This document shows, piece after piece, positions 1-18,078 of a stretch of 33,271 bases of DNA. Where the stretch lies: positions 1-33,271 of IMG/VR virus record IMGVR_UViG_3300009175_000048. One strand, 5' to 3'. Both the position numbers and the translations under genes were made by a program. Source of the DNA: a virus. The notes beneath the pieces were generated by a model. It worked only from the letters and a program-made list of their open reading frames with translations. It was not told where the DNA came from and searched no databases. Each line of letters begins with the position of its first letter. The first letter of the stretch is position 1.

Positions 1-108
1 GGCCGAATGGTGAAATTAGCAGACACACAAGACAAGCGACAGTCATCGCTATGAATTAAAATCTTGTGGAGGGTAACCTCCGTGCGGGTGCAAGTCCCGC
101 TTCGGCTA
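1..108 (+). tRNA. tRNA-Leu(UAA) with a 22-nt insertion in the anticodon loop
   Basis: Acceptor arms GGCCGAA (1-7) and TTCGGCT (101-107) pair over 7 bp, with one G-U pair, and A108 is the discriminator. The D stem is GTG/CAC (10-12/24-26). The anticodon stem is CAAGA/TCTTG (28-32/62-66). A long variable arm GGAGG/CCTCC (68-72/77-81) and a T arm GCGGG/CCCGC follow, which is class II leucine architecture. The loop should be 7 nt (CTTAAAA type) but is 29 nt. It ends in TTAAAA (56-61), which fits U33 and the UAA anticodon. The extra bases hold a hairpin AGCGA/TCGCT (35-39/46-50). CCA is not encoded. The T loop TGCAAGT has G where pseudouridine 55 normally sits. It may be an interrupted tRNA needing processing, or a decayed gene. 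Confidence 0.85.
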
Positions 109-111
109 CTA

Positions 112-149
112 AAAAACCCAATGTCGGCGTAGGCCGACATTGGGTTTTT
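112..149. terminator. Bidirectional terminator hairpin, copy 1 of a conserved hairpin family
   Basis: A perfect stem of 17 bp (112-128/133-149) with loop GTAG. The outer arms are A5 and T5, so both directions see a T tract after the stem: the tRNA on the plus strand and the glycosyltransferase-like gene ending at 158 on the minus strand. The inner 10 bp, CAATGTCGGC/GCCGACATTG, are identical in two other hairpins at 991-1024 and 11432-11465. Confidence 0.85.
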
Positions 150-1382: not shown

Positions 1383-4364
1383 TTAAAAAGTTGATATGTC
1401 TACTGCCGTAACAACCATGTGCCATAATATATTTTGAGCCGCACATCCTGTTGCGCAAGCAACTATGCAGTTAGTGGAGAATCCCACTGTAATACCAGTA
1501 ACAGCATTTACTGCACCGGGACCAACTTCATTATAACCACAACAACAGCAACATATACCACCTGATGGATTGGCTAGGCCCCATACATAAAATCCAGCAC
1601 CAAGATCGCAAGATTTATTGTAAGCTGATATGTGCATATTGTATGCAGTGGTTCCACTTAATGCGAAGTTTGCAATGGGCAATGTCGAAGCATTTACAGT
1701 GCATACTTGGCTATAATATCTAAAGTGTTTATTATCGGGCTGACATGATCCAACTGCGAATATTCCACTAGATGTAGTGTGTTGAGCGGTTAAATTAGCA
1801 CTAGAAGCATATCCTTCTGCATGAGCGGCCTGACCACAAGCAGATGTACAAAATCCTTCGGCATGAGATGCACAACAACATGTTGCGGTACAAAATCCTT
1901 CTGCATGAGAATAAGGAGCAGTAACCGAATTTGAAGAGCAAAATCCCTCTGCGTGCGAAGCAAGACCACAAGCTTTGGTACAAAATCCTTGGGCATGGCC
2001 ACCAGCGTTTCCACCAACACCTGTACAACACCCTTCGGCATGACCATAACAAAATCCAACACAGGTACAACACCCTTCGGTATGAGCCATACAACAGCAT
2101 GCACATGTACAAAATCCTTGGGCATGAACCGCATCACCAGCACCAATATTACAACATCCTTCGATGTGCATGTCGTAATTGGTACAAGAACCAATGCATG
2201 TAGCGAATGGTTTATATCCTTCTAGATGAGAATTACATTGAGATGAATTTCCCAAACACGCACCAAATCCTTCAATATGCATATTACTAGGAGTAGCTCC
2301 TATGCCAATGCAATGACAGCCACCTTCTGCATGTATACACTGCGCACTTATACAATTGCATATACCTTCAATATGAGCGCCGTAGCAACATGCTCTATTG
2401 CACGATCCTTCCATGTGTGAAGCATCTCCACACACTTGATAATTGCAAAATCCTTCCATATGATTACCGCAAATATACACTGGTGAGTAAGCGATATAAT
2501 TGCAAAATCCTTCAACGTGAGAACCCACAGCACAGGAGGTACATAAAACACTGCAAAGTCCTTGAGTGTGATTACCCATATTACAAGATGAATTACAAGC
2601 TATAACCTTATTATAAGCGCCATGAACATGATCTGCGATGCCAGCACATACAAAATTACAAAATCCTTCCACGTGCTGTGTGTTCGTTACGGTGGTAATC
2701 AAATTGCAAAACCCTTCTATGTGCCCTTGCGTGCCAGTACACGGTATAAAATTACAAAATCCTTCAACATGTGCATTATCAGATACCGCTCTATTTCTGC
2801 ATCCTTCCATGTGTATGTTGTTACCACCACCGCTTGCACAGGTACATACACCCTCTACATGTATCTGACCACCGCAAGCAAATGTTTGGCATCCTTCTAC
2901 ATGAAGAGGTTTACTTCCCGGTGAAGCATAGCCCATATTACACAATCCTTCTATGTGCATGTAACTGCTGCCGCAGAACCCAATATTCCCATACCCTTCT
3001 ATGTGATGAGCTATTTGAGTCTGGTTCGAGTACACGACGTTACAAAATCCTTCCATGTGAGTGGCACAGCCATAGGATGACCCAGTGCAACAAATATAAT
3101 GACATCCTCCTTCAATATGACTAAACTGACCACCACAGCCACAATTTCCAACGCCTTCAACGTGGGCGGCAAAACAAACCGCACAATTAATGATATGTGT
3201 GGCTCCAGACCCGTATGCTGCTCCTTCAACATGAGCCGCTGCCGCAAGAGCACAATTTCCAGCACCTTCCACATGACTGCTTAGATCACATGCGCAATTG
3301 TAGATTACGTTTGGAGTGGCCGTTGCGCTATATCGGATAAAACCTTCGGCATGAGTGTTGCTATTAGTAGCATATGTGCAGAAGCCTTCAGCATGAGCGC
3401 CAAGATATGCACCACTGCAAGCGCATGCGCAAAAACCTTCAGCATGAGCGGCAATCGATAAAGCTTTGGTATACATGCCTTCAGCATGACTTATTGTGCC
3501 GCTAGATTGTGTACAAAAACCTTCAGCATGAAATGAACTCGTTGTTGAACCTATTGGAGTTACGCCCTCCATGTGACCAGCACTACTGGTAACGTTGCCT
3601 GCACCAAAACAGCCGCAAAATCCTTCAGCGTGAATAAATGTACCTCTTGCACAATTGCCATACCCTTCTACGTGACCAAAGCAACTACAACAAAGAGTAT
3701 TGGTATGACCCTCAGCATGAGAATAATTCGAACTACATGTTGACATATTTCCACATCCTTCGGAATGTGAAAAAGACTCACACGTACTGTTGTTACATCC
3801 TTCTACGTGACCAACACAGCCACGAACTCTATTGCAAAATCCTTCGCCGTGCGAACAACTACAGCAAACTACAGTATAACATGCACCATCAACGTGTGAG
3901 CATTTAGCGCCGCCAATTACTATTCCGCCACTTTCCACCACAGTGCAGTCGGCCAGTATGTATTTATATCCCTCTGAACCGCAAAGAACACCGCCACAAT
4001 TGTATTGTATTTGATCTGCCATACCTGCGGGAGTACAACTAAAACAAGTGATGTAACCAGCGTCATTAACCATGTCGCAAGTTCTTGCACTGGTTGCAAC
4101 TGTGTGTAAAGTAATGGCTCCGTGACAAGTGTTTACCGATTGTACTCCAGTGACGCATGTTAAGAAGCCACAGTCATTAACTACATCACACGATTTTCCA
4201 CTTTTTGCTGCGGCTGATAATTCACTATAATTTTGCTTTTGTACAGCTAAATTTCGCAAACTATTATCCACATTTAATGCTGGACTATCGGGGGATAAGT
4301 CCCCTGTACAATTTAGCAATTGCACTTGGCCATTATAGCAACTAACAAAACAATGTGTTGACAT
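1383..4364 (-). CDS. Giant cysteine-rich HAEG-repeat tail fibre protein 1
   Basis: A 993-aa protein. The N-terminal ~130 residues share the pattern CF..Y.GQV/I...P and SLRNL..QKQN with the next two genes. About 43 repeats of the form xxH[AVIM]EGxC follow, of the kind seen in HAEG-repeat phage fibres and related to YadA/Hep-Hag head repeats. In one 100-residue stretch I counted 14 cysteines. Outer repeats read HAEG and central ones HVEG, HMEG or HIEG. The last ~130 residues form a separate C-terminal domain, diverged from that of the other two proteins, with a run of five cysteines (GGICCCCCG). GGAG lies 8 nt before the ATG. The stop of gene 2 is 15 nt upstream, so the three are probably one operon. 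Receptor binding or fibre shaft is inferred from repeat type. Confidence 0.8.
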   Translation of the reverse strand: MSTHCFVSCYNGQVQLLNCTGDLSPDSPALNVDNSLRNLAVQKQNYSELSAAAKSGKSCDVVNDCGFLTCVTGVQSVNTCHGAITLHTVATSARTCDMVNDAGYITCFSCTPAGMADQIQYNCGGVLCGSEGYKYILADCTVVESGGIVIGGAKCSHVDGACYTVVCCSCSHGEGFCNRVRGCVGHVEGCNNSTCESFSHSEGCGNMSTCSSNYSHAEGHTNTLCCSCFGHVEGYGNCARGTFIHAEGFCGCFGAGNVTSSAGHMEGVTPIGSTTSSFHAEGFCTQSSGTISHAEGMYTKALSIAAHAEGFCACACSGAYLGAHAEGFCTYATNSNTHAEGFIRYSATATPNVIYNCACDLSSHVEGAGNCALAAAAHVEGAAYGSGATHIINCAVCFAAHVEGVGNCGCGGQFSHIEGGCHYICCTGSSYGCATHMEGFCNVVYSNQTQIAHHIEGYGNIGFCGSSYMHIEGLCNMGYASPGSKPLHVEGCQTFACGGQIHVEGVCTCASGGGNNIHMEGCRNRAVSDNAHVEGFCNFIPCTGTQGHIEGFCNLITTVTNTQHVEGFCNFVCAGIADHVHGAYNKVIACNSSCNMGNHTQGLCSVLCTSCAVGSHVEGFCNYIAYSPVYICGNHMEGFCNYQVCGDASHMEGSCNRACCYGAHIEGICNCISAQCIHAEGGCHCIGIGATPSNMHIEGFGACLGNSSQCNSHLEGYKPFATCIGSCTNYDMHIEGCCNIGAGDAVHAQGFCTCACCCMAHTEGCCTCVGFCYGHAEGCCTGVGGNAGGHAQGFCTKACGLASHAEGFCSSNSVTAPYSHAEGFCTATCCCASHAEGFCTSACGQAAHAEGYASSANLTAQHTTSSGIFAVGSCQPDNKHFRYYSQVCTVNASTLPIANFALSGTTAYNMHISAYNKSCDLGAGFYVWGLANPSGGICCCCCGYNEVGPGAVNAVTGITVGFSTNCIVACATGCAAQNILWHMVVTAVDISTF

Positions 4365-4379
4365 TTTACATACTCCAAT

Positions 4380-7300
4380 TTATGCTTTAATAATAACTTC
4401 TGCACATTCTACAATCGCACTCCAACGAGTAGCGGCTCCTGTACCGGTTGCTTGAATTCTTAACCAACTAATAGAACCATCATAAGCCGCATCTATAGCT
4501 ATAGATCCACCTCCCATAGTGTTCCATTCATACTCTGTAACGGTAGGTGCTATTAATGCAACTGAATCTAGAGTTAGATATTTATTTATAACTCCTTGTA
4601 TAAACCAAGCTCCTCCACTAACAGACCCAGCTTTACTAGCTACTATTTTTACAGTATACATCCATGTTGTACTCGGCGGTAAAGTAATGACGCCACCTTG
4701 ATTGCCAATCGTTAATTCAACTGTTTCACTCAAAGTCGTTTTTGCCATCAAATGGAATCTGCTATATTGCGCACTTCCAACCTTACCAGGGGTTTCTGTG
4801 CCAATTACACCACTCGCTGATGCGTGTTGACCTAATTTACAAGCACAAGAAAGACATCCTTCTGCATGCGATGCTAGTGCGTATGCGCACGTTTTAATAC
4901 CCTCTGCGTGAGACCCTATACAACTAGCATAAGTATAATAGCCTTCAGCGTGAGAGGCATCACCACCAGCACATGTACAAAACCCTTCAGCGTGAGAGGC
5001 GACCCCATCAGCACGTGTACAACATCCTTCGGCGTGGGAAGCAATCCCGCAAGCACATGATCCACACCCTTCGGCATGGGAAGCACCTGCACCCGCACGG
5101 GTGCAGGTGCCTTCTGCATGAGAGGCGGCTCCACCGGCATAAGTATAACAACCTTCAGCGTGGGAAAAAGCAGCATCAATACAATTACAAAAGCCTTGAA
5201 CGTGGGAAGCTATAGCTATTGGTGTAGCTCTATTTCCATAACCTTCCATGTGTGTATAATTAGCGCCTGTGCATAAAACATTACAACAACCTTCTACGTG
5301 AGAATAACATGCACAACAATAAACGTTATACATGCCTTCAACGTGACCAGCGACAAGATTACTAGCTCCTCCCTCACCTAACACATTGCAAAATCCCTCA
5401 GCATGTGAGCCACAACCAATAGAAGATTGAATAATATTTCTATAGCCCTCTACGTGAGACCCGCATTGATCGGTATATGTTCTGTATCCTTCAGCGTGTG
5501 AACCTACAGCCAAAGCACAAGTTCCTCCTCCTTCGGCATGAGAACCACGACAACTAGCACAAACAGGATTTGGAACACTAAGAACCTCACAACACATCGC
5601 AGAATCGTAAGTATGTGATTGTAAAGGAGCAGCCATGCCTTCAGCATGTGATGCGTAACCCATTGCGCATGTGCCCACGCCTTCAGCGTGGGCAGCACAA
5701 TCACTTGCTCTATTATAAATAAAGGTTGGTACACAATAATAAGAATATTTTAATGCCACATTACCAGTTGATCCACACATGGGAATATTTCCCCACGCTC
5801 CAGTGGTTAAATTAATAGCTGTAGGCACACAAGCTTGACAAATACAAGTGGAAGGAGTTCCACAATTACATACAATACACAACGTTCCAACAGAATCAAC
5901 AACAAAGCATTGGACAACTGTGGTAGGTGGATTAGAAGCACCGCACATCACACATCCAATCATTGCACCGTAATGTGTAGGGTTACAGAATGGAGATAAT
6001 GTAACAACTGGAGCATAACGTGCCATGCAAAATCCACTAACCGTTCCGCTTGTAGCTACTAAAGTACAAGAAAGTTCAGCAAAAACACTTGTATTAGAGC
6101 AAAAACACATGCCTTCCACGTGTACTGCATTACAAAATCCCAGTCCACCCATGCCTTCTATGTGGACGCCGCAGAATCCAATGGTGTCTGCTATTTTGCC
6201 ACAAAATCCTTCTATGTGATTAAATCTACCACAAGATCCAGCAGCATTACAAAATCCTTCAACATGTGTAGCACAGTTACAAAATCCTATATAATTACAA
6301 CAACCTTCAATGTGATTGGCTACACCCTCACTATCACAAAATCCAGAGATGCGATTACAAATGCCTTCAGCATGCGATATCTGACTTCCTACAATATTAC
6401 AACAACCTTCAGCATGAGAAACACAATGTATGACTATATTGCAAAATCCTTCTACATGTGAAGCACAAGGCCGATACCCATTGACTTGGCTATCGTAAAT
6501 TACGTTGCAAAATCCTTCAGCATGTGACATACACCCACAAACACATGTGCGATATCCTTCAGCATGATCTGCGGTTGACAGAGCACAGGTTCCTCCACCT
6601 TCGGCATGAGAACCACAACCACCAGCACAAACAGGATAAAGAACTGGATTGGCAAGATCGCCATTAGAAACCGCTATACCTTCAGCATGTGATGCAAATC
6701 CTGTAGCACAGGTTCCCATGCCTTCGGCATGGGAACCATCACCAGCAGCATTATTAAATACTATAGCTGTAGAGCAAGTTCCTGTCACACATCTAAACGT
6801 TCCTTCGGCATGTGCTCCAATACCAGAAGCACATGTACAGAACCCTTCGGAGTGAGAGGCAACTCCATCAGCACGTGTACAACATCCTTCGGCATGCGAA
6901 GCATCTCCCATCGCACAGGAGCCAACGCCTTCAACATGCGATCCGACACCGCACGCACATCCACCGCTAATGACTGGATTGGCAAGATCTGTATTGGGAG
7001 ATGCTACACCTTCAGCATGCGATCCAATGCCAGCAGCACAAGTGCCGACACCTTCAGCATGCGATCCAGCGGATGCAGCAGTTGGGTATCTATAAACAGC
7101 AGCGGTGCCATATCCTATTGCTGCTCCCTCTGCATGGGCACCTCGACCAATGGCACAAGTGCAAAATCCTTCGGCATGAGCACCGTAATTAGCGCAAGCA
7201 CAAGTACAAAATCCTTCAGCGTGAGCACCGTAACCATCTGCTGCAACATTATAACCGATACAGGTACAAAATCCTTCAACATGATTTGCGCAATGTGCAA

Positions 7301-7910
7301 CGCAAGTGCAAAATCCTTCTGCATGATTTGAACAACCTGGATTCGCTTCTGTGCCGGTGTATCCAGATCCTTCTGCGTGATTCCAACGTCCGTCTGCATA
7401 TCCAAATCCTTCTGTGTGATTACAAAATCCATTTATATCTACTGTACCGCAGGATTCTGTAACATTTCTTGAATCATCCCCAGAAAATTTTATTGATGAT
7501 CCTGCAATAGCTTTTGCTGTTCCAATAGTATTATTATATTGAACTTTGCCATTCCCAGATACTCCTTCAATAATACTGCTAGGGGTGAAGAATGTAACAG
7601 GAGTATTCACTAAGTCACTACTTTTTCCACTAACTGCTATTGTGGCCAAAGTAACATCTCCACATAAATAACTTCCATTAAAAATACAACTTACGCCAGT
7701 AACACTAGTTAAAAATCCTGCTCCATTGGTCAGATCGCTAGTTTTACCAGTAGTGGCAAATAAGCATAAATCACTACTATTTTGCTTTTGATCAGATAGA
7801 TTCTTTAAGCTCACGTCTATAGCCCAAGAAGGTGTAGTCTGATTCGTTGGTTCAGGGGATATGCATTTTACCTGCCCGGAACAATAATCACAAAAACAAT
7901 ATATTGACAT
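4380..7910 (-). CDS. Giant cysteine-rich HAEG-repeat tail fibre protein 2
   Basis: A 1176-aa protein. The N-terminus has fibre-typical segments (GKTSDLTNGAGFLTSVTGV) leading into about 44 HAEG-type repeats, many as HAEGFCTCA. Around residues 607-735 the repeats are interrupted by a ~130-aa non-repeat island, still cysteine-rich, after which repeats resume. From about residue 1027 (GQHASASG) a C-terminal domain starts with GSAQYSRF and contains ITLPPSTTW, GAWFIQGV and TRWSAIVECAEV. This resembles the beta-rich C-terminal domain common on phage tail fibres. RBS TTGGAG precedes the ATG at 7910. It lies 22 nt downstream of fibre 3 and 15 nt upstream of fibre 1. Confidence 0.82.
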   Translation of the reverse strand: MSIYCFCDYCSGQVKCISPEPTNQTTPSWAIDVSLKNLSDQKQNSSDLCLFATTGKTSDLTNGAGFLTSVTGVSCIFNGSYLCGDVTLATIAVSGKSSDLVNTPVTFFTPSSIIEGVSGNGKVQYNNTIGTAKAIAGSSIKFSGDDSRNVTESCGTVDINGFCNHTEGFGYADGRWNHAEGSGYTGTEANPGCSNHAEGFCTCVAHCANHVEGFCTCIGYNVAADGYGAHAEGFCTCACANYGAHAEGFCTCAIGRGAHAEGAAIGYGTAAVYRYPTAASAGSHAEGVGTCAAGIGSHAEGVASPNTDLANPVISGGCACGVGSHVEGVGSCAMGDASHAEGCCTRADGVASHSEGFCTCASGIGAHAEGTFRCVTGTCSTAIVFNNAAGDGSHAEGMGTCATGFASHAEGIAVSNGDLANPVLYPVCAGGCGSHAEGGGTCALSTADHAEGYRTCVCGCMSHAEGFCNVIYDSQVNGYRPCASHVEGFCNIVIHCVSHAEGCCNIVGSQISHAEGICNRISGFCDSEGVANHIEGCCNYIGFCNCATHVEGFCNAAGSCGRFNHIEGFCGKIADTIGFCGVHIEGMGGLGFCNAVHVEGMCFCSNTSVFAELSCTLVATSGTVSGFCMARYAPVVTLSPFCNPTHYGAMIGCVMCGASNPPTTVVQCFVVDSVGTLCIVCNCGTPSTCICQACVPTAINLTTGAWGNIPMCGSTGNVALKYSYYCVPTFIYNRASDCAAHAEGVGTCAMGYASHAEGMAAPLQSHTYDSAMCCEVLSVPNPVCASCRGSHAEGGGTCALAVGSHAEGYRTYTDQCGSHVEGYRNIIQSSIGCGSHAEGFCNVLGEGGASNLVAGHVEGMYNVYCCACYSHVEGCCNVLCTGANYTHMEGYGNRATPIAIASHVQGFCNCIDAAFSHAEGCYTYAGGAASHAEGTCTRAGAGASHAEGCGSCACGIASHAEGCCTRADGVASHAEGFCTCAGGDASHAEGYYTYASCIGSHAEGIKTCAYALASHAEGCLSCACKLGQHASASGVIGTETPGKVGSAQYSRFHLMAKTTLSETVELTIGNQGGVITLPPSTTWMYTVKIVASKAGSVSGGAWFIQGVINKYLTLDSVALIAPTVTEYEWNTMGGGSIAIDAAYDGSISWLRIQATGTGAATRWSAIVECAEVIIKA

Positions 7911-7932: not shown

Positions 7933-10900
7933 TTATGCCACACTAACTTCTGAAGTTTCCATTACAGCCACCCAATTTATAGTATTGGCCTCAACTCCTG
8001 TTGCTGCAATATTAAACATAACAGGATTAAAAGACGATGTGCTTAATGTTACGGTACTTCCTACACCCAAATTATTCCATGAATTTACTGCTACGTCTGA
8101 GTTGTTGATGAATCTAAGTGTTCCATCGGTATTGACCAGTGTTCCTCTAAAATACCAACCAGCGGCAGTGTTGCCAGTACAATGATGAGCAGCCACTCTT
8201 ATGGTAAACATAATTGTTGCTTTAGATCCAGGCATTATCATCCCATATCCAGTAACACTATCTGTTGCAAGAGTTACAGGAGCCGCATTAATAGTTTGTG
8301 CCTTAAATACATATCGACTATATTGAGCATCGCCCAGAGTGGAAAACCCGCAATTGGCGGCAGCATGTTGTCCTGCCGTCCTAGCGAGAGAACAGCATCC
8401 TTCAGCGTGTCCAGCTTTTGCTCCAGTGGTAGTTAAACCAGTGCAAAATCCTTCAACGTGTCCACCGCAAGAATTTGCTAAAATAAATGAGCAAACTCCT
8501 TCAGTGTGACTACTTGGACTACAAGTAAAAGTTAATCTTCCTTCAGCATGTGAATGACAAGCATCTGCCAAAGAACAGCACCCTTCTGCGTGCGAGCTTT
8601 GACACTTAGCACAAGAACAGAACCCTTCTGCGTGCGATGAATCTTGGCATGCAAAAGTTCCTTTACCTTCTGCATGAGCAGCAGTATTCAATGATTTTGA
8701 CCAAGCCCCTTCAGCATGTCCTGCACAAGAACAAACCTGCGTACAACACCCTTCAGCGTGTCCAGCGTGACCAAGACTACAAATACATGAGCAACATCCT
8801 TCTGCATGAGCGTACCACAAAGTACAAGTAGTGGTACAAAGCCCTTCAGCGTGTGAAGCTGGTCCTTGGAAATCGCCACTTCCAGAAACGGTAGAAGCTC
8901 CTTCTGCATGTGAAGCCATTCCAAACGCAGTAGTTAGATTTCCTTCTGCATGTGAAGCAAATCCACACGCAGCAGTTAGAGATCCTTCTGCATGTTGAAC
9001 ATTTATGCTAGCGGTAGCGTTTCCGGCAATTGTTGACTTTCCTTCTGAATGTGAGTAATTATTACAAGCAGAGGTACAACATCCTTCCGCATGAGAAGCA
9101 AATCCAAGAGCCTTACTACCATATCCTTCTGCATGGGCGGCAATACCACCAACACAAGACAGTCCTCCTTCTGTGTGGGCTCCACAAACAATACAAGTAG
9201 CATTGTTAGCACAAATAGCCGAGCAAAACCCTTCAAGGTGTAGTCCGCAAGTGTATACAGCGGTGCCGCCTAGACTACAGTTTTTATATCCTTCTACATG
9301 AGCATATTGTAGACAATTAATTGGAGTGTAGCCAGGGCCAGCCCCTTCTAGGTGAGAAAAGTGACCACACGTACCCACACAATGACAAGTACCTTCTATG
9401 TGAAAACCAATAGATGCACAAGTACCATTACAAAATCCTTCCATATGTGTAGCCATCATTGGATGACCAGCACAGCCCATGTTTATATGTTGACAACATC
9501 CTTCCATGTGTAGAGCATTCATATTTTTATCAGCGGGATTACCAGCACCATAATTACCCTGCCAACATCCTTCTACGTGGACGGCATGAGCTTGACTTGG
9601 CATTTGAAAATTAATAGTAAGTCTTACGTTACACCCATCAGTGCATGCAATTGGTAAAAATACACAACCACCACCACTGGAAAATGTGGATGAGCATTGG
9701 TGAAAATAAACCGGCACCAATGTACTTGAAGTAGTTGAGCCTATAATGCAGGTGTTATTTGTGCCAGAAGCACAAACGCAAAATCCATTAGGATGAAATG
9801 CAAGAGTTTGTGCTGTACAATATGTCCCTCCGCAATTACACGATAAACATCCAGTAATGGTTGAAGGATTAGCAAGTTTTATAACCCCCCAGTTTGCACC
9901 GAAATCCCACCAATAACCAGTACCCGTTTTTGTACCAACAGAGCAACAGCTACAACATCTAGTGTTAGAACTACAACTCGATAACAAGTTTTGAAATCCT
10001 TCAACATGACTAAAACAAACAGCATCATTACATATACACTGACAACATCCTTCTGTGTGCCCTGCCAAACCAAAAATGTTTCGATTGGTATATCCTTCGA
10101 CATGAGAATAGTCTCCATGTGCAATTTGCACACATGAACTGGTACACCCCATGCCTTCCATGTGTGCTGCTAAACCTATTGCACAATTAGCAACCCCTTC
10201 AATGTGGGTTGCACAATTACATGCACAATTACAAAATCCTTCAACATGTGACGCTTCAAAACAAGCACATGAAAAGATGATTTGGCTTGCTAAATTCACT
10301 CCACCTTCAGCATGAGCACCAAGATTAGTAGCACAAGTAGTTCCTTCAGCATGAGATGCGATTCCAAGTGCCTTGCTACACCAGTTTTCAGCGTGAGATC
10401 CTGCACAACAAGCACATGTACAAAATCCTTCTGCGTGGGCTGCACAAGCACAAACACAGGCGTAAAATCCTTCTGCGTGGGCTCCTGTACAATAAGCACA
10501 TGTACAAAATCCTTCGACATGAGCGCCACAACCATCGGCCCAATTATATGTCACTCCACAAGCAGATCCTTCAGAGTGGGCTCCTATGCCACAAGCGACA
10601 GTACAAAATCCTTCAGCATGGGCTCCTATACAATCAGCACGTGTACAAAATCCTTCGACATGAATACCTGGAGTGCCGCTGCCGCAGGCCCAATTACAAA
10701 AACCTTCAACATGAGAAACCATGTTTATTGCTTTGCCACACCCGCCTTCAGCGTGAGAATAATGACCAACCGCACAAGAATCCAACCCTTCGGCATGCGA
10801 AAAACAGCCATAAGTACAACTTGACCCTTCGGCATGAGAACAATTACCACTAGCCGACGAAGCCCCCATAGCCACACTATTGTTAGAAGCATTAAAACAA

Positions 10901-11313
10901 AGTCCTGCTGCTCCACAAAATCCATTGTTACAATTATATTGAATTTGACCTGTGGTTCCGCCAGCAAGAACATTGCAAAAATAGTTGCAATTAATAGCCT
11001 GACAAGCCAATCCTTGACCAGATATAGCAGCTAAAGTAATCATGCCGCTTGCACCATTGACGGTAGTTACACCACAAGCCGCTGTCAGGAAACAACATCC
11101 ACCACAACAACTATTGTCTAAATCACAGGTATTTGCAGTTGTACCTACGGTAGCCACAGCACGAACACCGCCAACACAGTGTTTATCCGCTTTACAGTCA
11201 GATAAACACCTCAAACTCATGTCTATATTTGCTACCGGTAAACTAAAATCTGTAATGGCTGGATCGATTCGTTTAATTTGTCCGCTATTATAATCTATAA
11301 AACAATGTGCCAT
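7933..11313 (-). CDS. Giant cysteine-rich HAEG-repeat tail fibre protein 3
   Basis: A 1126-aa protein starting MAHCFIDYNSGQIKR. The ATG at 11313 is preceded by TTTGGAG; a TTG four codons upstream overlaps that site and is rejected. The N-terminal region includes GGTTGQIQYNCNNGFCG, a cysteine-substituted form of a linker frequent in phage fibres (QIQYNNNGAFGG type). About 45 HAEG-type repeats follow, interrupted at roughly residues 440-575 by a ~135-aa Gly/Ser/Cys-rich island. The C-terminal domain from about residue 984 (GDAQYSRYVF ... INWVAVMETSEV) is clearly homologous to that of fibre 2. It is the first of the three fibre genes in transcription order. Confidence 0.82.
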   Translation of the reverse strand: MAHCFIDYNSGQIKRIDPAITDFSLPVANIDMSLRCLSDCKADKHCVGGVRAVATVGTTANTCDLDNSCCGGCCFLTAACGVTTVNGASGMITLAAISGQGLACQAINCNYFCNVLAGGTTGQIQYNCNNGFCGAAGLCFNASNNSVAMGASSASGNCSHAEGSSCTYGCFSHAEGLDSCAVGHYSHAEGGCGKAINMVSHVEGFCNWACGSGTPGIHVEGFCTRADCIGAHAEGFCTVACGIGAHSEGSACGVTYNWADGCGAHVEGFCTCAYCTGAHAEGFYACVCACAAHAEGFCTCACCAGSHAENWCSKALGIASHAEGTTCATNLGAHAEGGVNLASQIIFSCACFEASHVEGFCNCACNCATHIEGVANCAIGLAAHMEGMGCTSSCVQIAHGDYSHVEGYTNRNIFGLAGHTEGCCQCICNDAVCFSHVEGFQNLLSSCSSNTRCCSCCSVGTKTGTGYWWDFGANWGVIKLANPSTITGCLSCNCGGTYCTAQTLAFHPNGFCVCASGTNNTCIIGSTTSSTLVPVYFHQCSSTFSSGGGCVFLPIACTDGCNVRLTINFQMPSQAHAVHVEGCWQGNYGAGNPADKNMNALHMEGCCQHINMGCAGHPMMATHMEGFCNGTCASIGFHIEGTCHCVGTCGHFSHLEGAGPGYTPINCLQYAHVEGYKNCSLGGTAVYTCGLHLEGFCSAICANNATCIVCGAHTEGGLSCVGGIAAHAEGYGSKALGFASHAEGCCTSACNNYSHSEGKSTIAGNATASINVQHAEGSLTAACGFASHAEGNLTTAFGMASHAEGASTVSGSGDFQGPASHAEGLCTTTCTLWYAHAEGCCSCICSLGHAGHAEGCCTQVCSCAGHAEGAWSKSLNTAAHAEGKGTFACQDSSHAEGFCSCAKCQSSHAEGCCSLADACHSHAEGRLTFTCSPSSHTEGVCSFILANSCGGHVEGFCTGLTTTGAKAGHAEGCCSLARTAGQHAAANCGFSTLGDAQYSRYVFKAQTINAAPVTLATDSVTGYGMIMPGSKATIMFTIRVAAHHCTGNTAAGWYFRGTLVNTDGTLRFINNSDVAVNSWNNLGVGSTVTLSTSSFNPVMFNIAATGVEANTINWVAVMETSEVSVA

Positions 11314-11431
11314 TTTTTGCTCCAAATACTAGGGCAGTATAGTTGCTTAACTATGATTATATATGAAAGTTGTTGATAATTACATTAGTTATTTAACATC
11401 GCAAGATGTTATTTTCAAACAACTATTGAAA

Positions 11432-12969: not shown

Positions 12970-12991
12970 GCTGCCTAGAAATTCATCTGGG

Positions 12992-13111
12992 GGCGGCGTG
13001 AAACCCCTACATTCCAAAGGAATGTTTGTTCTGTGAGTGAGTAAGTTAGCCGTAGGCGAACGACCGAACGAACAGAGCGAACCTCTTTAGGGTAGTGGGA
13101 TGTAAGCCGCC
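12992..13111 (+). ncRNA. Upstream copy of the TnpB-associated RNA fold
   Basis: Nested pairing is visible: GGCGGC (12992-12997) with GCCGCC (13106-13111); CCCCTAC (13004-13010) with GTAG-T-GGG (13092-13099, one bulge); hairpin ATTCC-AAA-GGAAT (13011-13023). A variable central arm contains GAGTGAGTAAG and AGGCGAACGA. The 3' block GAACCTCTTTAGGGTAG is identical to the right end of the element at 14532-14548. It may be the left end of the element, or the omega RNA of a lost or separate element. No known RNA family is assigned. Confidence 0.5.
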
Positions 13112-13184
13112 ATAATAAAAATAATTTCAAAATAATTTAGAATTCATAAAAAAATTATGAGCAATCATACTATATAAGTATGAG

Positions 13185-14543
13185 ATGTTCAAAGTCCAAA
13201 AGAATAAGATGAAGTTGGATAGAAGCCAATTTAGGTTTTGGCGTGATATGTGTCGCCGTAGCAAAAATCTTTTCAATTCTACATTGTGGGAAACTAACAA
13301 TCACTTTGGTCAATGCGGAGAATTTTTGACCTACAACAGTGCGTACCATGTAATGAAAGTAAGACCTGAATATAAGGCACTTGGAACTGATGCCTCTCAA
13401 CAAACAATGAAAATAGTAGAACGCTGTTTTCGTTCTTTCTTTGGACTTTTGAAAAAGAAACAACATGGCAATTACAACAAGCCAGTCAAAAAACCTCATT
13501 TTCTTCCCAAAGATGGACATTTCCTCTGTATATTTCCACAGCGAAATTGTGTTGAACATTTTAGTGTAGCAGTGCCAAAAGATTTACGAAGTAAGTATAA
13601 GTTCAAGAAGTTTGTGTATCAAATCCCTCCGAATGTCAAAGGCAATCGGATAAAAGAGGTTCGCATTCTTCCAAAGAGTAAAGCAGAGCATTTTGAGATT
13701 GAGTTTGTGTATGAAGTTGAACAAGAACATCCAAAACTTGAAAAAAGTCGTGTATTGAGTATTGATCCTGGCGTAAGTAATTTCGCCACTTGCCTTGACA
13801 GTAAAACTGGACACTCGTTTATCTTAGACGGGCGTAGAATGAAATCCATAAATCAATGGTATAATAAGGAGAGAGCAAGACTACAATCAATACTGGAAAC
13901 ACAAGGACAAAAATCAAGTAAGCGTATGCGAACAATGGAGGATAAAAGAAATCGTAGATTGAACGAACATCTCAATCAATATGTCAATTTGATTGTTCAA
14001 ACTTGTATTAAACATCAAATTGGCAAAGTGGTAATTGGTGAAGGTTGGCACGCTCAAGATGGAAGTCACATTGGAGACAAAAACAACCAAAACTTTGTAA
14101 TGCTTCCGTTTGGTAAGTTTGCTTGGAAATTGCGAAGTAAGTGTGAGTTATATGGAATTGAATATAAATCCATCAACGAAGCATATACTTCAAAGTGCGA
14201 CCATTTAGCAAATGAACCAATGTGTCATCACGAAGAGTATTTAGGACGAAGAATAAAGCGTGGTTTGTTCAAGTCAAGTACAGGTATTATTATCAATGCT
14301 GATATGCACGGTGCATTGGGAATTATGCTGAAATCAGGTAGCGGGAAGGGTCTTCGGACTCAACTCAGTAGAGGCGTTGTCAATACGCCTTCAAGAATTA
14401 GGTTGGATAAAATCCATTCTTTCTCTTGTAAGAGGTTGGTTGAAAACATTTTTAATCAATCCAAGCCCCTACTTTCCGAAGGAAAGTTCAATAGTGGAGC
14501 GAGTGAGCGTAAGCGAATGAAAACCACTATTGAACCTCTTTAG
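13185..14543 (+). CDS. tnpB: TnpB RNA-guided endonuclease
   Basis: A 452-aa protein of normal TnpB length. The N-terminal helical region has clustered basic residues. RuvC-like motifs are visible: LSIDPGVSNFATCLD (first Asp, near residue 192), KVVIGEGWH (Glu, near 288) and ININADMHGALGI-like (last Asp, near 374). Between the last two lies a Cys/His cluster (SKCDH...MCHH), a variant of the usual Cys4 finger. Family knowledge: TnpB cuts DNA guided by an omega RNA made from the element's 3' end. The final codons and stop (14541-14543) lie inside the candidate omega RNA. A small palindrome CATACT/AGTATG (13166-13182) precedes the ATG and no strong RBS is seen, suggesting low or structured translation. 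Confidence 0.85.
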   Translation: MFKVQKNKMKLDRSQFRFWRDMCRRSKNLFNSTLWETNNHFGQCGEFLTYNSAYHVMKVRPEYKALGTDASQQTMKIVERCFRSFFGLLKKKQHGNYNKPVKKPHFLPKDGHFLCIFPQRNCVEHFSVAVPKDLRSKYKFKKFVYQIPPNVKGNRIKEVRILPKSKAEHFEIEFVYEVEQEHPKLEKSRVLSIDPGVSNFATCLDSKTGHSFILDGRRMKSINQWYNKERARLQSILETQGQKSSKRMRTMEDKRNRRLNEHLNQYVNLIVQTCIKHQIGKVVIGEGWHAQDGSHIGDKNNQNFVMLPFGKFAWKLRSKCELYGIEYKSINEAYTSKCDHLANEPMCHHEEYLGRRIKRGLFKSSTGIIINADMHGALGIMLKSGSGKGLRTQLSRGVVNTPSRIRLDKIHSFSCKRLVENIFNQSKPLLSEGKFNSGASERKRMKTTIEPL

Positions 14544-14551: not shown

Positions 14552-14895
14552 TAATTGACTACATCCTTACCAATCTTTTCTTGCAAAACCTTTTCTTCCG
14601 TAGAGGCACCGTACTTAAATCTATCACCATAACCAGAGTAAGCATGTCTGAAACTAATGTTTGCCACATCTCCTTCTCCGCCATGATAATTGCAACTAAC
14701 ATGTAATTTATAGCATTGACGACCATTACATTCTTTTTGAGGGTCGGGTTCAGAGTTAAAATAGAAATTATGCTCATTAGCAATTTGGTTGAGTGGGGGC
14801 TCCCACTTCCCATCTAAGACCTTGTGGGAGTCTATTTCTTCTTGTCCGAAAGCTTCGACCAAGTAATCCAATGCTAACCATTCTTTGAAATTCAT
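14527..14895 (-). CDS. Paralogue of the gene at 11903, C-terminus replaced by the TnpB element
   Basis: A 122-aa protein starting MNFKEWLALDYLVE. It aligns with the 98-aa protein at 11903-12199 (EEID, DG.W, H.F.FN, DP.K.C, CY.LHVS, DRF). Beyond the aligned part it has a tail ending NYPYPKEVQ. The last eight or so codons and the stop are read from the element's right end (14527-14551), so the insertion has probably truncated or rewritten the native C-terminus. The ATG at 14895 has only a weak RBS, and CTAAATA lies 4 nt upstream. It carries the F-x-x-W N-terminal motif. Confidence 0.7.
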   Translation of the reverse strand: MNFKEWLALDYLVEAFGQEEIDSHKVLDGKWEPPLNQIANEHNFYFNSEPDPQKECNGRQCYKLHVSCNYHGGEGDVANISFRHAYSGYGDRFKYGASTEEKVLQEKIGKDVVNYPYPKEVQ

Positions 14896-14898
14896 ACT

Positions 14899-14906
14899 TT
14901 ATTTAG
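14899..14906 (-). promoter_or_regulatory. Possible late-promoter motif CTAAATAA
   Basis: The minus strand reads CGCTAAATAAAGTATG, with ATG the start at 14895. If used as a late promoter, transcription would begin about at the start codon (leaderless). Weak evidence. Confidence 0.25.
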
Positions 14907-14911
14907 CGGTC

Positions 14912-14940
14912 TTGACTAAGAAACTGTTACTTGTTATTAT
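14912..14940 (+). promoter_or_regulatory. Sigma70-type promoter
   Basis: TTGACT (14912-14917) and TATTAT (14935-14940), spacing 17 nt, 20 nt before the start at 14960. Five of six bases match in each box. Confidence 0.65.
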
Positions 14941-14959
14941 ATCTGTTAGGAGAAAATAT

Positions 14960-15364
14960 ATGAAAGAATTCACGGTACAAACTTATTGGGCAAAGATATA
15001 CATTGGTTCCGTCCGTGGCTACAATGGCAGCAAATTCTTTGATCATGACGTGATAGCGGCCATTGGCGAATTCCAAAAGAGACATGAAGTAGAACGCATA
15101 TTGGATGCAGCCGAGCTAGTGTCGGTAACAGTTACAAATACCACCTATGTGGTTAGGGATTATGTGGAAGATGGCTTCGAAATAGCTTCTATCAACTATC
15201 CACGATTTCCCAAAACGAACCAGGAAATCTTTGTCTACATACATGCTTTAGCCGAATTTTTGCTAAACAAGTTTGAACAAAACCGATTAAGTCTAGTCAC
15301 CCCATTAATGACCTATACTTTTGAAAAAGATAACCCAGAAGAACACCCCAAACCCGTCAAATGA
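14960..15364 (+). CDS. Hypothetical protein
   Basis: A 134-aa protein, MKEFTVQTYWAKIYIG at the start. The ATG at 14960 follows TTAGGAG with 7-nt spacing; an upstream in-frame ATG at 14885 overlaps the divergent gene and its promoter and is rejected. Mixed alpha/beta composition, no membrane segment, no motif I can name. It follows the promoter at 14912 and precedes uvsW by 56 nt on the same strand, so it is likely an early gene. Confidence 0.65.
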   Translation: MKEFTVQTYWAKIYIGSVRGYNGSKFFDHDVIAAIGEFQKRHEVERILDAAELVSVTVTNTTYVVRDYVEDGFEIASINYPRFPKTNQEIFVYIHALAEFLLNKFEQNRLSLVTPLMTYTFEKDNPEEHPKPVK

Positions 15365-17280: not shown

Positions 17281-17487
17281 ATGATGACTATCTTTGGGGT
17301 ATTAGGGATTATATTAATGATCACATCCGTATTATTCATCATGGTGTCGGTAACACCAATGTTGGCAATGATGTGGGACAGTCCAAAAGCTGGATACAAA
17401 CCATTGGTGGTTGCTATACCTTGGTTCTTAATAATGATAGCACTATTGATTGGCGATGTAGTTTTATTGTTTAGGCTTTTTTCCTAA
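17281..17487 (+). CDS. Small two-helix membrane protein
   Basis: A 68-aa protein with hydrophobic stretches at about 3-28 and 42-66, separated by a short polar loop DSPKAGYK. RBS GGAGG lies 8 nt upstream of the ATG, within the CAP gene's end. Size and topology would fit a holin or a generic envelope protein; no family is recognised. Its 3' end overlaps the convergent gene at 17464 by 24 nt. Confidence 0.6.
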   Translation: MMTIFGVLGIILMITSVLFIMVSVTPMLAMMWDSPKAGYKPLVVAIPWFLIMIALLIGDVVLLFRLFS

Positions 17488-18078
17488 AAGTTCATCCACA
17501 TCAATCTTATCCTGCCAACGTGTGATCATTTTCTGAATAGTGTCCAACGGAACGCCATGCGTGTTACGTTTGGCGAGTATTTTAGCAAATTCTTCTAGCT
17601 TTTTTGGATCAAGCTTTTTATCAGCTAAATATGGGCGATATTCATTCCACCAAGGAGAATCAGGTTCTTCAATTTTAACCGTATAACCTGCTTTATCAGC
17701 ATACTCGACGTAGTGACGAAAATCTCTGGAAACAATACAGGTATTATCTAATACTAATGGCGTAACACCAAGATCTACGGCATATTGAAACTCTTGAAAA
17801 TTATGTGCGTGAGCAGCACCTAATTTCTCTGCCTTCCAGTTTGATCGATACTCTTGATATTCATCACTAGTAGAAATCTGCTCACCACGTCGCTTCTTTT
17901 GTTGTGATACAGGGATAAAATAATTATCGGTCGAAAATACATGATCGTAATCTCCTCCGTATTGAGCAAGCAATGCATTGATCTTCGTTGATTTTCCAGA
18001 CCCCGGAGGCCCACGAAGTATAATGAATATCTTTTCTTGTTGTTTGTTTTCTACCCACTGACTAAATTTTTTTATCAT
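17464..18078 (-). CDS. P-loop kinase-like protein (AAA_33 / polynucleotide-kinase type)
   Basis: A 204-aa protein. After the N-terminal MIKKFSQWVENKQQ comes a Walker A LRGPPGSGKST (about 20-30), then FSTDNYF, LGAAHAHNFQEF and PLVLDNT. That succession is typical of the small ATPase/kinase group that includes N4BP2-like and polynucleotide kinase P-loop domains. Substrate is unknown; a nucleic acid 5' end or a nucleotide is plausible. The start overlaps the end of the upstream HNH gene by 17 nt. The first 14 residues resemble the F-x-x-W tag seen on several other proteins here and lie outside the enzymatic domain. Confidence 0.7.
   Translation of the reverse strand: MIKKFSQWVENKQQEKIFIILRGPPGSGKSTKINALLAQYGGDYDHVFSTDNYFIPVSQQKKRRGEQISTSDEYQEYRSNWKAEKLGAAHAHNFQEFQYAVDLGVTPLVLDNTCIVSRDFRHYVEYADKAGYTVKIEEPDSPWWNEYRPYLADKKLDPKKLEEFAKILAKRNTHGVPLDTIQKMITRWQDKIDVDELLGKKPKQ

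Follow-up and report, generated by a model that had tools for sequence, protein, structure and literature searches.

The window analysed here, a complete viral contig of 33,271 bases, begins with the first base of a tRNA-Leu(UAA) gene whose anticodon loop holds 22 extra nucleotides. The locus raises the question of what this insert is and whether the RNA that carries it is spliced, works unspliced or is dead. An earlier note, made from the sequence, had suggested a minimal intron, a target left by escape from an anticodon nuclease, or a dead tRNA. The window corresponds to bases 5204-38474 of the 259,024-base IMG/VR contig IMGVR_UViG_3300022555_003232 (G001), at 99.99% identity. G001 is an incomplete genome with about 50 tRNAs. 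Its tRNA-Leu(UAA) is identical to that of the window in every letter, and an upstream reading frame ends within a few bases of it. The window also contains three giant adjacent reading frames (1383-4364, 4380-7910, 7933-11325 (-)), the first built from dozens of repeats that are rich in Cys, centre on HAEGFC and resemble the SHAEG-type repeats of phage tails and adhesins. TnpB/IS605-type transposases are present in several copies, at 13185-14543 of the window and elsewhere in G001, and share a stretch of about 150 bases.

The interrupted tRNA-Leu(UAA) gene

At 1-108, neither ARAGORN with introns disallowed nor Rfam applied to the whole window gave a match. A scan with intron models, as the earlier note had proposed, was performed with ARAGORN and identified a tRNA-Leu(taa) at 1-109, of which 22 nt (aagcgacagtcatcgctatgaa) were called as intron. 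The Rfam tRNA model, applied to the short stretch, covered 1-108 and scored 33.9 bits, against a gathering score of 29. In its default mode, ARAGORN overlooks such interrupted tRNA genes. The locus is arranged as follows.

1..108, + strand: interrupted tRNA-Leu(UAA), class II, CCA not encoded (ARAGORN with introns, Rfam, stem counts)
1..33, + strand: 5' exon, through tRNA position 32, which is C33 of the window (ARAGORN, position analysis)
34..55, + strand: 22-nt insert, A-AGCGA-CAGTCA-TCGCT-ATGAA, between tRNA positions 32 and 33
35..50, + strand: hairpin within the insert, 5 bp with the 6-nt loop CAGTCA (fold; covariation across ten inserts)
56..108, + strand: 3' exon, beginning with U33, anticodon UAA (57-59) and anticodon stem (62-66), followed by the variable arm, the T-arm with G55 at 90, the acceptor and A73
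112..149, no strand: perfect inverted repeat AAAAACCCAATGTCGGC GTAG GCCGACATTGGGTTTTT directly after the tRNA, read from the sequence

The inverted repeat may be a terminator that works in both directions; it is absent from the terminator-scan output.

Apart from the insert the gene is intact, as the earlier note had stated. All positions pair in the acceptor (7/7), D (3/3), anticodon (5/5) and T (5/5) stems, with G-U as the first acceptor pair, and the D-loop has A-G in place of the usual G18-G19. The decayed stems and conserved positions of a tRNA pseudogene were not found in the window gene. The T-loop reads TGCAAGT, and the G55 to which the earlier note drew attention is real. T54-G55 occurs in 4 of the 50 G001 tRNAs, two of them uninterrupted, and G55 is therefore not a mark of decay in the window gene.

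The anticodon loop is 29 nt long (C-AAGCGACAGUCAUCGCUAUGAA-UUAAAA, hyphens marking the ends of the insert) and, as had been noticed, contains its own 5-bp hairpin, AGCGA/UCGCU, closed by a 6-nt loop. The fold was better than that of any of 200 shuffled sequences (z -3.6), and the predicted structure runs from the anticodon stem through an asymmetric internal loop, with 2 nt in one strand and about 11 nt in the other, to the terminal hairpin. Without the insert the loop reads CUUAAAA, which is normal for Leu-UAA. Only removal at 31/32 or 32/33 restores U33, and 31/32 leaves A32.

Ten short hairpin inserts in related huge phages

An exact-DNA search of annotated phages with the first 8 kb of the window found no relatives, and single-protein searches of viral contigs recovered the same phage alone. 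A three-member DnaB alignment gave access to a clade with over 180 contigs. Among annotated phages, the one with the closest DnaB helicase is LR756511.1, an uncultured phage of 595 kb, which we take to originate from the 2020 huge-phage study. The DnaB of a second contig, G002, is 51% identical to that of the window, and contigs G063, G082, G025 and G026 were recovered through the DnaB-based search. The earlier note had suggested looking for the same insert in related phages, and the same kind of 21-22-nt hairpin recurred in ten tRNA genes, spread over seven related contigs whose DnaB helicases are about 39-53% identical where compared.

G001, Leu-UAA: the gene of the window
G001, initiator-type tRNA-Met: CUC-UUGGCUCAGACAAGCCCUAGA-AUAA
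G001, tRNA-Arg-UCU: CUU-AGGGGCAAGUCAGCCCCAUAAU-CUAA
LR756511.1, tRNA-Met: C-ACGGGUUUAUCAACCCGCGAU-UCAUAA
G002, tRNA-Phe: C-AGGGGUCAGGCAACCCCAUGAA-UGAAAA (from the generic scan)
G025, Arg-UCU: CUU-AACGUCUUAUCAGACGACAAA-CUAA
G026, Leu, first gene: UUU-AAGGGUUUAAGAACCCACUAAA-AGAA
G026, Leu, second gene: UUU-UAGGGUUUGAAAACCCAUUAAA-AGGU
G063, Leu-UAA: A-ACCGCCUGAUAGCGGAUAAUC-UUAAAA
G082, Leu-UAG: C-CACGGCCAAAAAGCCGCCAAU-UUAGGA

The insert sequences are unalike, and the structure is common to all ten. Each insert is 21-22 nt long and consists of 1-2 letters, a perfect hairpin of 4-5 bp with a loop of exactly 6 letters ending in A, and 4-6 further letters, the last of which is A, T or C. Five inserts lie at 32/33 and five at 34/35, with a one-letter shift possible in several, and more than one removal frame gives a plausible loop in several of the 34/35 cases. 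In 10/10 genes, removal of the insert yields a normal 7-nt loop with U33 and the cognate anticodon.

After letter shuffling, a 6-nt loop closed by 4 bp or more without mismatch arose with a probability of 0.5-16% per insert, and the product over the ten is about 6e-13. When the inserts were aligned on a 14-column core, all 40 cells paired and each of the four pairs varied on both sides; sliding the partner by one column reduced pairing to half. The covariation score was reached by 0 of 500 shuffles. The cores were picked by best hairpin, which itself favours pairing, so the contrast in covariation score is stronger evidence than the pairing. ARAGORN, run on 6.45 Mb of shuffled genome, called no intron.

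An assembly or sequencing artefact, which the earlier note had named as a means of refutation and which might be feared since every sequence is metagenomic, is excluded for practical purposes by the agreement between contigs. The tRNA-Leu is letter-identical in the window and the 259-kb contig, the initiator Met insert of G001 recurs unchanged in a contig from a second dataset (3300009175), and the unrelated inserts of other phages follow the same rules. We regard this explanation as negligible.

The integrity of the exons bears on the suggestion of a dead tRNA. The anticodon stem pairs at 5/5 positions in all ten interrupted tRNAs, and nearly all of them retain the full set of acceptor, D, anticodon and T stems. 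The acceptor pairs at 7/7 positions except in the initiator (6/7), where the mismatch at 1-72 is expected. tRNA anticodon loops are common integration targets, and a small mobile or recombination-derived hairpin might have inserted into them at the DNA level and left the genes dead or dying. The intact copies that sometimes accompany interrupted ones would fit such an origin. However, the inserts resemble one another in structure and not in sequence, and the exons have not decayed. Leu-UAA is interrupted at the same site in G001 and G063, and Arg-UCU at the same site in G001 and G025, with stems that have diverged in each case and still pair. Both stems of the interrupted arm vary by paired changes between relatives. 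A dead tRNA is not supported, and we consider the genes improbable as casualties of insertion.

G002 contains uninterrupted Leu-UAA and Phe genes beside its interrupted Phe, which indicates that the insertion is optional among relatives. An uninterrupted copy of the same isotype accompanies the interrupted one for Phe in G002 and for Arg-UCU in G001; the only copies of the initiator and Leu tRNAs found in the incomplete G001 are interrupted. The earlier note had counted uninterrupted copies in relatives, together with decay elsewhere in the gene, as evidence against its view. Such copies exist, but decay elsewhere in the window gene does not.

The set of ten was kept narrow. A generic pattern for class I tRNAs of extra length matched more than 120 contigs, but most matches were odd tRNA-like RNAs or extended variable arms, and only structure-checked cases were therefore used. 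An insert pattern of the CAGNCA type, run on viral contigs and bacterial genomes, returned the G002 Phe gene and coincidences in coding sequence, with nothing further. A Leu-specific pattern returned three ordinary Leu tRNAs and one more interrupted gene, in G096. Candidates that broke the 6-nt-loop rule or had an unclean U33 (a 'Val' candidate at G001 209999-210094 and Arg-CCU-like genes in L123/L124) were placed outside the ten.

Further hairpin inserts were observed outside the clade and were left out of the statistics. G096 (IMGVR 3300045971_000356) has a Leu-UAA gene at 14843-14962 with a 33-nt hairpin insert at 34/35, G023 a Met gene at 46379-46481 with a 28-nt insert, and G018 a Val gene at 9135-9230 with a 21-nt insert. 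Arg-like genes with 26-nt hairpin inserts lie at about 101161-101261 in G007 and at 10877-10977 in G021.

Other unusual tRNA-like genes of G001 were also recorded. Two tRNA-like RNAs, at 128960-129089 (L044:8960-9089) and 161889-162016, share a different, longer insert (TTTCAGCG...AGTTGGAACTACATC) and were set apart. The first lies directly after a Ro60/TROVE gene, a placement as in bacterial Y RNAs, and a sub-threshold Rfam match to YrlA (E 0.0038) lies just downstream of it. LR756511 has two comparable RNAs at about 289133 and 291310 (-). Genes at 188112-188186 and 188262-188336 have an abnormal anticodon loop (ACGCAAGT) and could not be assigned by ARAGORN. Two CUA suppressor tRNAs are located at 183724 and 210663, yet 78 of the 357 predicted frames end in TAG. 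A gene resembling a release factor lies at 230695-231318.

Comparison with known tRNA introns

The known bacterial tRNA introns belong to group I (PMC4090602), as the earlier note had stated in agreement with the literature (PMC4090602, PMC3984707). Like the inserts described here, they interrupt the anticodon region, including that of initiator Met (PMC8450103, PMC4090602, PMC3984707), and the authors of tRNAscan-SE reported bacterial initiator tRNAs hidden by them (PMC8450103). Every phage intron known as of 2014 lay in a protein-coding gene (PMC3984707). Group I introns are mostly longer than 200 nt and have a catalytic core, which an insert of 22 nt cannot hold. The core (P3-P9) needs about 200 nt or more, and Rfam gave no group I match in the window. 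The splice signals of group I, a U before the 5' site and a G at the 3' end, are likewise absent from the window gene, which has C before the insert and A at the insert's end.

A candidate for a true group I intron is present in the clade. The tRNA-Leu(UAA) of LR756511 (about 409955 to 409170 (-), L054) is split by an insert of roughly 700 nt at 34/35, a site used in Leu-UAA by bacterial group I introns as well. Both exons pair, and the start of the insert resembles a group I intron, with a weak Rfam match (E 0.79). This gene, and the occurrence of bacterial group I introns in the same region of the tRNA, could suggest that group I introns once lay in the same loop and shrank to the short inserts. 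We consider this very unlikely: the window insert is at 32/33 and not at 34/35, ten introns would hardly have shrunk to one size and one hairpin form, and the Rfam match in LR756511 is itself weak.

Archaeal and eukaryal tRNA introns are, like these inserts, short, located in the anticodon loop and too small to self-splice, and a ligase joins the exons after cutting (PMC4090602). They lie mostly at 37/38, and the archaeal norm is a bulge-helix-bulge (PMC4090602), whereas restoration of the loop places the present inserts at 32/33 or 34/35, and their hairpin projects from an asymmetric internal loop. The two 3-nt bulges around a 4-bp helix that define the bulge-helix-bulge are absent from the predicted fold of the window gene. 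The inserts are too short to be group I introns and differ from archaeal and eukaryal ones in both site and layout.

The earlier note's account of bacterial introns did pass over the tRNA introns already mentioned for Lak megaphages (PMC8346664). For recoded jumbo phages, too, tRNAs with intronic sequences have been reported (PMC13037316). Like the inserts described here, those introns occur in the tRNAs of huge phages with many tRNAs and are missed by tRNA finders in bacterial mode; no structure, site or mechanism was found for them in the searched text of these two sources. In the Lak-A1 genome (MK250016), tRNAs at L376:5331-5517 and 12983-13147 (-) are split by tRNA-like segments. These clear introns measure 93-114 nt, in contrast to the 21-22 nt found here, and the window insert is neither long nor tRNA-like. 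No 21-22-nt hairpin insert of the present form was seen in the Lak-A1 tRNA regions examined. Introns are unmentioned in the main text of the 2020 huge-phage paper (PMC7162821), and in a study of phage tRNA anticodon loops (PMC10264068). An earlier description of the exact form is possible, as the literature search excluded most subscription papers and all bioRxiv-only preprints.

Phage repair enzymes and the fate of the insert

Several genes for the healing and sealing of RNA ends were identified.

Window 17464..18078, - strand: P-loop kinase related to polynucleotide kinase (AAA_33; PHROG 505)
G001 112970-114286, - strand: T4-Rnl1-type ligase
G001 185966-186679: Rnl2-type ligase
G001 240523-241629: RlaP

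The kinase matched Pfam AAA_33 (1.3e-8) and a PHROG polynucleotide kinase (1.2e-7) and is a candidate 5'-end healing enzyme. All four proteins have homologs in LR756511 and G025. In LR756511 a weak kinase homolog (8090-8587) lies just upstream of Rnl1 (8856-9962), and in G025 the kinase homolog is fused to a histidine-phosphatase domain. G001 also has weak matches to 2H-phosphoesterase-like proteins, one of which adjoins a calcineurin-like phosphoesterase. Rnl1 was not found in G026 or the fragment G002, and the fragments G002, G063 and G082 gave no match of the Rnl2 type. Queries with E. coli RtcA/RtcB and T4 PseT found no match in G001, LR756511 or G025, and no splicing endonuclease of the EndA/TSEN type was found among about 50 G001 proteins compared with Pfam.

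Such a set of enzymes is able to heal and seal cut tRNA ends, a capacity reviewed for jumbo phages (PMC7824862). The enzyme families found here are those of T4 tRNA repair, in which polynucleotide kinase and RNA ligase 1 act after PrrC, and the joining chemistry proposed below is the same (PMC7824862). T4 mends cuts that a host nuclease makes in an uninterrupted loop, whereas the extra segment here is encoded within the tRNA gene. The same ligases occur in clade members and other phages in which no such inserts were detected, and the link to the inserts is therefore suggestive only; because the ligases have a known role in repair after anticodon nucleases, their presence is not specific. A target left by escape from an anticodon nuclease, as the earlier note had proposed, received no direct support, even though the phages carry tRNA-repair enzymes.

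These results favour the minimal intron. We consider it on balance probable, from the structure and distribution of the inserts, that they are protein-spliced mini-introns of 21-22 nt belonging to one clade of huge tailed phages. Since a group I core does not fit into a hairpin of 22 nt, excision would depend on proteins. An endonuclease would cut the precursor tRNA at both ends of the insert, the phage kinase and a phosphatase would heal the cut ends, and T4-type RNA ligases, Rnl1 and/or Rnl2, would join the halves into a tRNA with a normal 7-nt loop and anticodon UAA. The two insertion sites would require one tolerant enzyme or two. A plausible benefit is that the unspliced tRNA would lack the loop that host anticodon nucleases attack.

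The main rival is that the insert is never removed and that the product is a stable tRNA-like RNA that functions with its arm extended. It could, for instance, sequester host anticodon nucleases or tRNA-binding proteins as a decoy or sponge. The conserved form of the hairpin is what a decoy would also need, huge phages have other insert-bearing tRNA-like RNAs (in G001, one beside Ro60/TROVE), and an uninterrupted copy is sometimes kept, as for G002 Phe and G001 Arg-UCU. We nevertheless judge this rather unlikely, since the exons are fully tRNA-like, U33 and the cognate anticodon appear without the insert in all ten genes, and both the only initiator and the only Leu tRNA found in the incomplete G001 are interrupted.

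Protein splicing of the mini-introns could go further, and we propose more tentatively, at somewhat less than an even chance, that this clade runs its own protein-based tRNA splicing in bacteria. An endonuclease, phage-encoded or recruited, would recognise the hairpin of a mini-intron at 32/33 or 34/35, and the phage's polynucleotide kinase, phosphatase and RNA ligases would join the halves. Cut-and-ligate tRNA splicing has been described for archaea and eukaryotes, and bacterial tRNA introns have been described as self-splicing group I introns. If the proposal is true, cut-and-ligate tRNA splicing operates in bacterial cells too, and phage RNA ligases gain a role beyond repair. The inserts of G096 (Leu-UAA, 33 nt) and G023 (Met, 28 nt) would make the splicing pathway a wider trait. 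The mini-introns are also relevant to why phages carry tRNAs at all.
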